Assembly (NCBI GenBank): GCA_021234155.1
Contig: JAJEKV010000013.1
Location: 9,526,031 to 9,590,030, forward strand
DNA from: Isoetes taiwanensis
Lineage: Eukaryota; Streptophyta; Lycopodiopsida; Isoetales; Isoetaceae
Direction: 5' to 3'
DNA: 64,000 bases
Shown: piece after piece, positions 10,927 through 47,084 of the stretch
Numbering within the stretch: position 1 is the first letter of the stretch
Layout of the letters: each line of letters begins with the position of its first letter
Position numbers and translations under genes: made by a program
The notes under the pieces: generated by a model
The model's database searches: none
Told to the model about the DNA's origin: nothing
Seen by the model: only the letters and a program-made list of their open reading frames with translations

Positions 10927-11988
10927 CTAGGGCCTCTCCCTGCGGATTCTCCGTGCTAAGTGGATGTCCTTCGGCATGAGGGTTACCCACTTAGCATGGA
11001 TAGCTGTGAAGTTTCCCTCCTCGAAGAGCTGCACCGGCTCTGCTTGGCTGACCTCTTGCAGGCCGGGTCATTAGAGGGGGTAACCACATAATCGGTCGGG
11101 GCTGCTGCAACACCTCTCTAAGGAGACTCCAGGCCTTCCTTATCGGGAGATTCGTGCACATCACGGAAGTGCGAATCTCCCTAAACTACCGAGGCGTATG
11201 TGCTATTTGGCCCGTGGTGAACCCTCTTGGTTTTTCCGGCCTCGGTGGGGGTGGCTTGAGGGCTGGTTCTTCTTGACTGCCCCCCCTCTGACTGGCACCT
11301 CCTTCGGCAATACCACTCATTGTACCTCGTCCAGCGATGAAGGTACTCTGGTATCACCACCATCTTCCGTTTGAACTCCGGTCCTTCTTTGGGCGAATGC
11401 GCTCCCCTACCTTTTGTTTCTTCACCACCTTAGGTGGTTCAAGCCCTAGGGTGCAGGGTGGCCTAAGCGTCCGGGGTCCTGCTGCCCCTCCTCTCCTCTT
11501 CCTCCCACTGCGGCTCCTCTTACGGCGGGGCTCTTGAATCTTGACCCGGTCCCGTGAGGGCCCGTCGTTCCTTCGTCGCCTCTCCTCCTCCCTCGGCTCC
11601 CTCTCACGCTCCGCTTCTTCTGGCGGCCCTCTCCTCCCACTCACTGCTACTTTTTCCTTTCCCTTCTTCTTGGGCCTTTGAAGGCCCGCTTCCTCCACTG
11701 CTGCACCTGCTCCTCCCCTCTTCTTCCACCTCGGTGTCCGAGGGGCAGAAATGGCGAGACTTCGCCGGTCCTCTCGAGTGCTGCCGATGGAGAGCTGCTT
11801 CTTTGGGAGTCTCCTGGCGTCATGGAAGGAGGCTTCCTTCTGCTAGCTTCTTTCTGGGGGAAGCTCCTCTTCCCCTTTCTTGGGTGGGAGGTGCTCGGGA
11901 TCTTCTTCACATGTAAGCCTGCTTGCCTGCGCCATGGAGAGGGTAGGTCTTGTTCAGGCTTCCTGTAGGTTTGTTTGGTGCGAGCCAT
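10927..11988 (-). pseudogene. Histone H3-like gene of element A (H3-tail start)
   Basis: The ATG at 11988 gives MARTKQTYRKPEQDLPSPW: the first ten residues differ from the H3 tail (ARTKQTARK) only at A7Y. A long basic, Pro/Arg-rich middle follows (112 codons to a stop at 11647, then PPKVVKKQ in another frame near 11430, also present in copy D). The C-terminal part, in shifted frames, reads LREIRTSVMCTNLPIRKAWS near 11160 and LFEEGNFTAIHAKWV, TLMPKDIHLARRIRRERP before the TAG at 10927. These match H3 alphaN/alpha1 and alpha2-end/alpha3. The region between is degraded. Frameshifts make it a pseudogene. The TATA box is at 12119 and the PBS at 12545. This cannot be a standard host H3, because it lies between PBS and gag of a retroelement and has an extended middle. 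Confidence 0.85.
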
Positions 11989-12118
11989 ATCTTATGGTTG
12001 AGAAAATGGGGTGAAGGGTTGGGCAAAGAGGGTTGGAGGTGAAGGGTTGAGAGAAAAAATGAGGTGTCGATAAAAAAAAAGGAGGGTCCACGGGAATATT
12101 CTCCTACCATAATTACCC

Positions 12119-12129
12119 CTATTTATTAG
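12119..12129 (-). promoter_or_regulatory. TATA box of H3-like gene A
   Basis: The minus strand reads CTAATAAATAG, identical over 11 bases to the equivalent site in element D (47230-47240), about 135-150 bases before each ATG. A pyrimidine-rich leader follows in both. Confidence 0.6.
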
Positions 12130-12544
12130 CCCCCCCTTATTAATTACAAGATATTTAATTAATTATTTAACTATTAATGTATATATTAACCTATATTAAT
12201 TGATATTATCTTTAAATTTTCGAATTTTCCTAATGGTTCGAAGTGCACTTTATGAATTTGCGCCATTTTTCACCTGGGTCTCCGATTGGCATGATTCTTC
12301 GACCCATTTTAGGTGAAATTTGATGCAGATGCATAATTTTCACTCCAAATTTACTAGAAGGTTCGTTTGACTCCCTCAGATCTTCGTCTAACACTTAGCC
12401 TAATTCCTGACCCACTACCTAGGAGAAAAATTTTCCCCCATTTTCGCGGTTCGATGGTGGAAATGTTTATTTCACACCCCTATAGGCCTGTTAGACTACT
12501 TCATGGTTATGGTCAGTGCTAGTTCTTGGTCAACCAAGAACATC
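12130..12544. other. Leader between PBS and H3-like promoter, element A
   Basis: AT-rich sequence without a credible gene. Part of it (12130-12240) matches element D at 47240-47320. Confidence 0.4.
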
Positions 12545-12556
12545 GCTCTGATACCA
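12545..12556 (-). other. Primer binding site of element A (tRNA-iMet)
   Basis: The minus strand reads TGGTATCAGAGC one base after the 5' LTR. This is the usual plant retrotransposon primer site complementary to the initiator methionine tRNA 3' end. It fixes the orientation: element A reads on the minus strand and 12558-17791 is its 5' LTR. Confidence 0.9.
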
Positions 12557-45420: not shown

Positions 45421-45453
45421 AGTACTCCAGCTCCAAAGACTCGTCGCTGTCAT

Positions 45454-45466
45454 AGGAGGGGGATGG
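45454..45466 (+). other. Polypurine tract of element E
   Basis: AGGAGGGGGATGG directly before the 3' LTR. Confidence 0.85.
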
Positions 45467-45915
45467 TGTGACGACCATATGGGTATTTGTATCATACGAA
45501 TGCAAAAAGGTAGTTGCACTGAGCAAGGTTTGAACTCGCAACCTTCTAGTTGAGAGTCGAACACCTTTGTCAAGCGCACTACCAATACTTATTAAAGACA
45601 TTCCATCACGTCTTTCTTATATGCAAGGCTGTTCCCAGGAGGTCCTAGAACATTCTAGACCTGCATGCATGCATGACACTTGGCGTGATCCCATCCATGG
45701 GAGTGGCGTGATCCTGACCATCGGTCTAGATATATAAGGAGGCATCTCCTTCTTGTCGAACCATTTCTTCTCTGTCTCATGTTTTTGTTTGCCTTGGACC
45801 CATTGTACTCTTGATTCTGCTCATATATCAGATTTTTTTAGATCTTGGCATATTTCTTCCGTATTTCTTGCATATTTTTCACGTATTTTCCTTGTTTTCG
45901 CGTAGGTTCTTGACA
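45467..45915 (+). repeat. 3' LTR of element E
   Basis: 449 bp, TGTGACGACC...TTCTTGACA, TATA box TATATAAGG at 45731. Followed by the target duplication CTAAA. Confidence 0.92.
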
Positions 45916-46022
45916 CTAAAAGTCAAATTTTTAATATTATATTCATCCAAAAGGTTCTACATACATTTATTACAATTTCTATACAAAATTTCAAGCTTCT
46001 AGAGCTTGTCCTTCCTAATTCT

Positions 46023-47084
46023 CTAGGCCAGGTGGAGATCCTTGGGCATCACCGTGACCCTCTTCGCATGGATGGCGCACAAATTGCCCTCCTCAAAAAG
46101 TTGCACGTGAGGCTCGGCGTCGGTGCCTCTTGGAGATCGGTTGTCGGGGGTCAGAAGTCTTGCATTATTCCTGGAGGAGCCATTAAAATGGCCTTTAGGG
46201 ATCAGGAGATTAGTGCCTTTGTTGAAAGTGCCTAATCTCTCCCAAAAGACCTAAGCTTGTCTAGAATTGGGTCCATGCCTGGACCCTCTTTGGAGCTTCG
46301 GGCCGAGGTGGAGGTGGCTTTGGCTGATTCTTGGGTCTGCCTTGACATACTTATAGACATTTTGCTTATAGTACCAATGCGTTGTATACGTCCATCTCCG
46401 TAAGTAGTCCTAGTGCATTTTGCTTGAGCTTGAACTCCCTCTCCCCCACCTTGCTTCTTGACCACCTTTGGTGGCAGGGCCACTTTGGATAAGGTGGTGG
46501 GCATTGGAGTTTGAGGTTTCTCCAACTTTCCCTTGAGCTCCCTCTTCCTCCTGCTCCCGTTTTCGTTGACCCTCCTCCTCCGTCTTCTTGCTTTCGTCAT
46601 CGGTTAGCCTCCGTGAGGGTTCTTGATATGCATGGTGCCTCTTGGTGGGTCCTAGTCCCTCTTGGACCTTTTCTCCTGTAGCCTAAACTTCTTGCTCCAT
46701 CTCCCTCTTCTTCATGGCTGCTCTGTTTTCTGGCCACTCCGTCACCTCCTTCCCCTTCTTCTTATTGGGGCCTACCTGCTCTTGTTGGTGCTCCCCCTCC
46801 TCCTGCTGCCCTTCTTGCTGCTGCTGCTGTTGGCTCCCGAGGCGTGGTGGTGGAACCGGTTTGCTGTCTGGCTACAGCGTGCTCTCGGTAGAAGCTACGG
46901 GAACTGCTGGGAGGTATGGAAGGTCTCGTTAGTGGAGCTGGATGTGTTGTGCTCCTCCTCGTCCTCCACTCGGGCCTCAGGTGCTCTAGGATCTTTTTGC
47001 CGCTTCACGTAGCTATCTCATCCATCTTGGACCTCTCTGCCTAGGGCTTCTATACTTTCTCGCTGTGCATTTGGTATGAGCCAT
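46023..47084 (-). pseudogene. Histone H3-like gene of element D
   Basis: The ATG at 47084 gives MAHTKCTARKYRSPRQRGP: the H3 tail with R2H and Q5C, K4, T6, A7, R8 and K9 kept. A stop follows after 24 codons. In later frames the middle is Glu/Gln-rich then Lys/Arg-rich, with VALPPKVVKKQGGGEG near 46470 (PPKVVKKQ is shared with copy A). Then EIRHFQQRH and NLLIPKGHF (H3 alphaN/alpha1 position), and at the end VQLFEEGNLCAIHAKRVTVM, PKDLHLA before a TAG at 46023. Strongly frameshifted. The TATA box at 47230 is identical to that of copy A. Element E lies just downstream. Confidence 0.82.

Follow-up and report, generated by a model that had tools for sequence, protein, structure and literature searches.

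Introduction

Published precedents include an H3-like gene in a fungal hAT transposon, histones encoded by viruses, and captured domains in plant elements; unless a main text is named, what is said here of published work comes from excerpts of the papers cited. The hAT transposon H3L of Pyrenophora tritici-repentis carries and amplifies an H3-like gene (PMC3538342). Here we describe histone H3 genes in long terminal repeat (LTR) retrotransposons of Isoetes taiwanensis, starting from a 64,000-nucleotide (nt) stretch of its genome (assembly GCA_021234155.1, contig JAJEKV010000013.1, positions 9,526,031–9,590,030, forward strand), referred to below as the window. Whereas H3L is a fungal DNA transposon whose long form occurs 10 times in near-identical copies (PMC3538342), the Isoetes family consists of LTR retrotransposons that form three diverged lineages, appear to be under strong selection and encode a fused protein of H3 tail, linker and H3 fold.

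Chromoviruses, the Ty3/gypsy elements with an integrase chromodomain, share the gag-pol order, the transfer RNA (tRNA) primer site and the chromodomain (PMC3350952, PMC3605345), but the Isoetes elements place extra open reading frames (ORFs) before gag-pol, the first of which encodes H3. Orchid Ty3/gypsy elements with an N6-methyladenosine (m6A) demethylase are likewise plant Ty3/gypsy elements with a captured, conserved extra domain; the domain differs, and the main text has 'histone' twice, in other contexts only (PMC9289625). VANC of Arabidopsis VANDAL would be similar in function, being an element-encoded anti-silencing protein, but it recognises short sequence motifs and causes DNA hypomethylation, and the excerpts mention no histone part (PMC5735166, PMC10398659, PMC13317346). 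The bracovirus histone CpBV-H4 is also parasite-encoded, joins host nucleosomes and alters expression via its tail, but it is an H4 and comes from a DNA virus (PMC5423620); other viral histones are likewise encoded by parasites (PMC9145170). 'Retrotransposon' is absent from the main text of this last review, and 'histone' from the main text of reviews on extra genes in plant elements (PMC7264820, PMC13317346). In the open-licence full-text literature, a scope that takes in neither subscription papers nor bioRxiv, we found no H3-encoding LTR retrotransposon and no element H3 with an altered K9. H3 is the substrate of transposon-silencing marks, and a standing H3 gene turns this substrate of host silencing into a protein of the element.

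H3-derived sequence at four sites of the window

Reading frames of the window and Pfam matches place H3-derived sequence at four sites, A to D, as an initial annotation had claimed. Stops or frameshifts disrupt all four copies of the H3-bearing frame (ORF1).

10930–11988, minus strand: copy A, lineage III, ORF1 broken
20820–22010, minus strand: copy B, lineage II, ORF1 uninterrupted except for two internal stops
25159–26302, plus strand: copy C, lineage I, ORF1 broken
46002–47084, minus strand: copy D, lineage III-like, ORF1 broken

Copies A, C and D each begin with an H3 tail, in agreement with that annotation. Copy A is composed of the tail MARTKQTYRK (11959–11988), a frameshifted charged linker and an H3 C-terminal end (10930–11043; AIHAKWVTLMPKDIHLARRIRRERP, by eye). 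The tail of copy D reads MAHTKCTARK (47055–47084), and its H3 C-terminal end lies at 46002–46118 (AIHAKRVTVMPKDLHLA*RIRKDKL, by eye); A and D are assigned to lineage III by the tail alone. Copy C starts with MARTKQTARM (25159–25188), a K9M tail, followed by a linker that is acidic and then basic and by a divergent H3 fold within 25903–26302. This fold matches PF00125 with an expectation value (E) of 1.5e-9, its top Protein Data Bank matches are H3 chains (E 2e-9), and an intact relative of copy C is present at genomic locus L033. Copy B starts with MPRFKLT, which is not an H3 tail. It contains a 166-residue N-domain of unassigned fold (21513–22010), a charged linker with a degenerate internal tail (21210–21509) and a near-canonical H3 (20823–21206; PF00125, E 6e-43) that is 83% identical to host H3.

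Chance similarity to H3 is ruled out by the Pfam scores of copies B and C and of the genome-wide matches. The window copies belong to three lineages and are thus relatives, not copies of one element. The earlier view of one family in four copies stands in that all four are decayed relatives within a Ty3/gypsy family. Rfam gave no match in the window, and single-sequence AlphaFold2 models of the copy C fold piece and the copy B N-domain were too poor to use (predicted local distance difference test scores of 56 and 45).

H3 is a fixed part of ORF2-bearing elements

The genome was searched over 1,658,258,908 bases in 1110 contigs; candidate totals given here are first-look counts. From 8704 candidates in a Pfam histone search, 150 were scored. 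Fifteen are full-length host-type matches (profile positions 2–122, 164–165 bits), and the other 135 are element-type. Twenty lineage-II loci were drawn from these 135 for long open frames, so that their intactness (396–494 amino acids) is by choice. H3 ends all 15 ORF1 frames that were fully translated, and further ORFs and gag-pol frames lie downstream in the same stretches. Motifs of protease, reverse transcriptase or RNase H occur in 16 of the 20 loci, including L019, and 15 of the 20 have the exact primer-site 11-mer TGGTATCAGAG 494–776 nt upstream of the ORF1 frame. The H3 fold scores 126–148 bits in five lineage-II ORF1 proteins and 65 bits in the lineage-I protein of L033 (Pfam cut-off 26.4). 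In intact copies ORF1 encodes a protein of about 370–450 residues, with the H3 fold at its C-terminal end, between primer site and gag-pol. Among the lineage-I ORF1 copies read, 11 of 17 are open.

ORF2, a downstream frame without a Pfam match, served as an independent probe. Of 6869 candidates, 92 matches were scored, and 34 of these have an H3 from the element-type set at most 3 kb upstream on the same strand, with a median gap of 275 nt. The first 20 loci in table order without a match in that set, closely related to one another (87–93% identical to the query ORF2), were then fetched, and all 20 have H3 in the same orientation within 461–501 nt upstream. Several of these H3 copies are decayed, and L081 retains only 14 residues. 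These figures cover 54 of the 92 matches (34 by list, 20 fetched) and ORF2-bearing copies only. H3 is a fixed part of ORF2-bearing elements, and its presence directly upstream in 20 of 20 fetched loci excludes independent retrocopies of host H3. Family members without H3, which the initial annotation had named as evidence against its proposal, were sought in part: the first 27 of the 92 ORF2 matches all have H3 upstream (seven by list, 20 fetched). That annotation had also proposed that the elements carry H3 in a set place, with the primer site on one side and gag on the other, and that element-specific linkers are part of the protein. This is borne out genome-wide for lineage II; in lineage I, L033 shares the junction of LTR end and primer site with the element around copy A (85% identity over 62 nt).

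Locus L019 holds both ends of an element, with the LTR start at 116, primer site at 1801, ORF1-H3 at 2519–3880, gag-pol at 4146–8936 and the 3' LTR from 9528. Its gag-pol, in two frames, contains capsid, protease, reverse transcriptase, RNase H, integrase parts and a chromodomain in Ty3/gypsy order, and no ORF2 or ORF3 was seen between ORF1 and gag-pol. The integrase zinc-binding and RNase H domains score above their cut-offs, while the integrase core (PF00665) reaches 29.6 bits, below its cut-off of 32.6. The integrase chromodomain (PF00385) scores 32.9 bits (cut-off 25.1; E 6e-8) in L019, the only copy tested. Of the three aromatic residues of the usual chromodomain cage, the tryptophan alone seems, by eye, to be present in this domain (L019:6798–8936); with the other two apparently absent, it may not read H3K9 methylation.

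The LTR pair of L019 is identical at 272 of 274 bases, and the LTRs of L012, on the same strand and 11.6 kb apart, are 100% identical (rounded) over about 700 nt. LTR identities of 99–100% in these two elements indicate that at least some members were recently active. Six LTR pairs 11.5–11.6 kb apart were found among 40 scored LTR matches (of 4955 candidates).

The lineage-II proteins ORF2 (about 410–490 residues; L022:4135–5520, window 19321–20556) and ORF3 (about 170 residues) had no Pfam match in the one or two copies of each that were searched. An ORF2-like protein with the start (M)ATSAFRRWYSATAHVAEAD was also seen in lineage-I loci. When a profile built from five ORF1 proteins was run against 8000 scored candidates, 5520 matched, the best 120 of which cover the H3 part only (21–43% of the query), and the copy B N-domain had no match among 210 candidates. 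H3 proteins swamp the profile lists, so a relative may still exist elsewhere.

Three lineages of element H3

A tree of the H3 fold was built from 38 rows, with lineage I represented by open copies only. Lineage II forms one clade (support 94/96) within canonical H3, and its fold is 83–88% identical to host H3 (five rows). Compared with host gene L001, codon positions 1 and 2 are 83–87% identical and position 3 only 27–47%. Third positions are thus near-random and the first two conserved, indicating an old capture and a protein that has been kept. We compared the fold with a list of residues that we take to be DNA-, H4- and H3–H3' contact sites. Most are kept in all 18 lineage-II copies; the exceptions are Y41 (11 of 18), R42 (12), Y54 (16), Q55 (17), K64 (10), V89 (1, mostly I) and F104 (10). 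The start of lineage-II ORF1 varies (MPRFKLT, MEPVKQVYKRKP, MANTKSAP, MARTKGTK). Speculatively, MPRFKLT (L012 and others) may be likened to SNAG tails, H3-tail mimics that bind LSD1-type demethylases.

Lineage I is a separate clade (100/100), 44–45% identical to host H3 (three rows). It keeps C110, H113, D123 and L126 (10 of 11 copies). A possible CENH3 origin of lineage I was considered: its identity to Arabidopsis CENH3 is 40–42%, the motif EIRHFQ..LLIP is CENH3-like, there is no loop insertion, and the branches are long. Lineage III is represented by tails and fragments; a search with the N-terminal part of copy A gave 1217 candidates, of which 150 were scored. ORF1 departs from the canonical layout, with ARTKQTARKS beside the fold: in lineage I the tail is N-terminal but far from the fold.

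Constraint within ORF1 is strongest in the H3 fold

The ratio of nonsynonymous to synonymous substitution rates (dN/dS) was estimated from 18 of the 20 lineage-II loci (L020 and L021 were missed by a motif filter) and from the 11 of 17 lineage-I copies with open frames. In lineage II the ratio is 0.038 (0.03–0.06) in the fold and 0.24–0.37 in the start, the linker and the tail-like part; for the N-domain a bootstrap range only, 0.14–0.21, is given. Silent sites of lineage II are near saturation (proportion of synonymous differences 0.72 in the fold), and its ratio is therefore rough. In lineage I the values are 0.074 (0.04–0.11) for the fold, 0.16 for the middle, 0.26 for the linker and 0.16 (0.03–0.52) for the first ten codons. 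All regions come from the same copies, so the comparison between them is an internal control. By these estimates lineages I and II both show strong selection on ORF1, and within it the H3 fold varies least at the protein level.

The lineage-I tail and residue 9

Twenty-five lineage-I tails were compared, 20 picked among matches aligning from residue 1 and five from 12 loci selected by the fold. The requirement for alignment from residue 1 favours kept tails in the sample of 20, and the 12 fold-selected loci are the unbiased set. Three loci, L038 (with a 1-nt shift), L030 and L040, are outside the 25. A1, T3, K4, Q5 and T6 are invariant in all 25 tails, with silently variable codons; R2 is kept in 19, A7 in 22 and R8 in 24. 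The dN/dS ratio is 0.07 for residues 1–8 and 0.33 for residues 10–30.

Within this tail K9 is replaced in 22 of 25 copies, residue 9 being M in 13, I in seven, V in two and K in three. The M9 tails match the K9M peptide in their first nine residues and have V, T or I in place of S10. A tail is recognisable in eight of the 12 fold-selected loci, and none has K9 (M in four, I in two, V in two, the V pair carrying a 1-nt deletion or a stop). The sole K9 copy in the fold tree, L071, is the first to diverge (the remaining copies group with support 96/58), followed by the I, then the V, then the M copies, which suggests that K9 was ancestral and later lost.

A possible decoy for host silencing

Taken together, ORF1 is by its sequence a part of the element, intact in many copies, with an H3 fold at its end and, in lineages I and III, the start ARTKQT. 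The explanation that we favour, with nearly balanced confidence, is that a Ty3/gypsy chromodomain element acquired H3 in the distant past, in one event or several, that the captured H3 was kept as its first ORF, and that the protein would act on the silencing machinery of the host. The ORF1 protein would enter the nucleus, pair with host H4 or otherwise dock on chromatin, and display its tail to the host's transposon-silencing machinery. Lineage-I tails mostly have M, I or V at residue 9, none of which can be methylated, and by analogy with H3K9M such a tail would hold H3K9 methyltransferases, in plants those of the KYP/SUVH type being candidates, in a dead-end complex, weakening H3K9 methylation. 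Lineages II and III might follow the same logic through other contacts, by the fold or by a tail that soaks up writers or readers.

This analogy draws on fission yeast, where H3K9M dominantly blocks H3K9 methylation (PMC5030085). The SET domains of Clr4 and G9a bind the K9M peptide more strongly than the wild type, with S-adenosylmethionine; the peptide in the G9a crystal is ARTKQTARMSTGGKA, and phosphorylation of S10 weakens Clr4 binding (PMC5030085). H3K9M is thus a known dominant trap for H3K9 methyltransferases, which makes a decoy the leading mechanism. For lineage I, we tentatively regard a decoy of these enzymes as the likeliest single use, at somewhat less than even odds. Somewhat bolder, and held with more doubt, is the proposal that lineage I is a natural K9M/K9I H3 decoy, a retrotransposon 'oncohistone', in which S10 has been lost so that phosphorylation could not release the trap. 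Across the whole family, a defence of some kind against silencing, acting at the level of chromatin, is about as likely as not.

Several observations weigh against a decoy. Three lineage-I tails retain K9 (L054, L055 and L059, the last being the same locus as L071), lineage III keeps it in all six tails (ARTKQT(A/Y)RK), so that K9 loss is confined to lineage I, and in lineage II the H3 tail is internal and degenerate, with no clean N-terminal tail. Tails have also decayed: L030 reads IACTKQIARM (T6I), four of the 12 fold-selected loci have none, and L075 lacks one where expected. Residues 10–11 of lineage I are mostly V rather than S-T, and recognition by methyltransferases may therefore be poor. 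R40, R42, R63 and F84 are lost in lineage I (none of 11 copies), making its incorporation into nucleosomes doubtful. Single-base changes suffice to turn M, I and V into one another, and the state of residue 9 may therefore go back to one old inherited change; and since 'isoleucine' and 'K9I' are absent from PMC5030085, K9I and K9V rest on analogy.

The alternatives assign other tasks to the same protein. One is that the element H3 serves to target integration or to gain access to chromatin: it would pair with H4 and chaperones, or be read by chromatin factors or the element's own chromodomain, and so guide the pre-integration complex. The contact residues mostly kept in lineage II, the integrase chromodomain of L019 and the K9 tails of lineage III speak for such a role, which we nevertheless regard as unlikely. 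The apparent loss of cage residues in L019 argues mildly against recognition of H3 by the element itself. None of the fission-yeast chromodomains tested binds the K9M peptide (PMC5030085), a poor fit to lineage I, and the K9M/I/V tail of this lineage points to silencing evasion rather than chromatin targeting, the two roles put forward in the initial annotation. ORF1 might instead compact or protect the element's RNA or complementary DNA in the particle or the nucleus. It is the first ORF, has long charged and partly basic stretches, and giant-virus histones are known to form nucleosome-like particles (PMC11500106); but packaging would not need the invariant N-terminal TKQT, and the element showed no H4, H2A or H2B partner, although no search was aimed at one. 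This role is quite improbable.

A more limited role in nuclear import or as a gag-like structural protein, with the H3 part serving only for localisation and dimerisation, would suit the long charged linkers and the binding of histones to importins. Constraint on the whole fold and on exact tail residues exceeds what import would need, and we give this role little weight, less than any of the preceding ones. Functionless, independent retrocopies of host H3 near LTRs can be practically dismissed. The eight host H3 loci fetched do match in a single exon, as retrocopies would; against this stand the constant place and order of the parts in all 20 fetched loci, a result that also answers the initial annotation's own counter-proposal, together with long open frames, dN/dS ratios of 0.04–0.07 and the clade support of 100/100 (I) and 94/96 (II).

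Should the decoy for H3K9 methyltransferases be real, it would be a natural counterpart of the K-to-M histones of cancer and a directly testable case of plant transposon escape from H3K9 methylation, and K9 loss after capture would record an arms race within an element family. The family also supplies a naturally occurring series of related proteins whose tails differ at residue 9 (K, M, I or V).

Elements around the window copies

The surroundings of the four copies contain the following element parts.

1229–2639, minus strand: 3' LTR of element A, pairs with 12569–14008
3627–9555, minus strand: degraded gag-pol fragments of element A, weak domain matches
12546–12557, minus strand: primer binding site of element A, exact 11-mer
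12569–14008, minus strand: 5' LTR of element A, 78% identical to 1229–2639
17874–19000, minus strand: ORF3-like piece (18707–19000) and gag start (17874–18269) of element B, by-eye likeness to ORFs of genome-wide copies
19321–20556, minus strand: ORF2 of element B, 411 amino acids, no Pfam match up to E 1
23238–23249, minus strand: primer binding site of element B, exact 11-mer, followed by the 5' LTR of B
24866–24941 and 26448–26512, plus strand: near-palindromic hairpin repeats of about 75 nt flanking copy C, from window repeat comparison and folding
47319–48335, minus strand: partial LTR beside copy D, related to the LTR of A, 72% identical

The primer-site 11-mer, which we take to be the complement of the end of plant initiator tRNA-Met, occurs twice in the window, at 12546 and 23238, both on the minus strand and upstream of A and B. 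This confirms the placement of both copies behind a tRNA primer site in the initial annotation, and a related, partial LTR does lie beside D, where it had reported the same LTR type. The LTR pair of element A corresponds to a Jukes-Cantor distance of 0.25. Its gag-pol retains an RNase H-like piece (5151–5384, E 0.002) and an integrase SH3-like piece (3627–4160, E 4e-4), both below Pfam cut-offs, and five further pieces have no Pfam match.

The spacers on either side of lineage-I ORF1 hold the repeat of about 75 nt at up to four places, with at least one copy in all 12 fold-selected loci (L029–L040), and strong hairpins are predicted for the two window copies (z −3.5 and −2.6). The repeat could be a small foldback insertion or else an RNA element with a role in the expression of several ORFs. 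Tandem direct repeats offset by about 420 nt and near 90% identical occupy 62589–64000, reaching the window end. A chromodomain-like stretch of another element, at about 45196–45375 on the plus strand (LEPYMANPFLD...YLVDWEGYSPSDRTWEP, hand-translated), adjoins copy D on the opposite strand.

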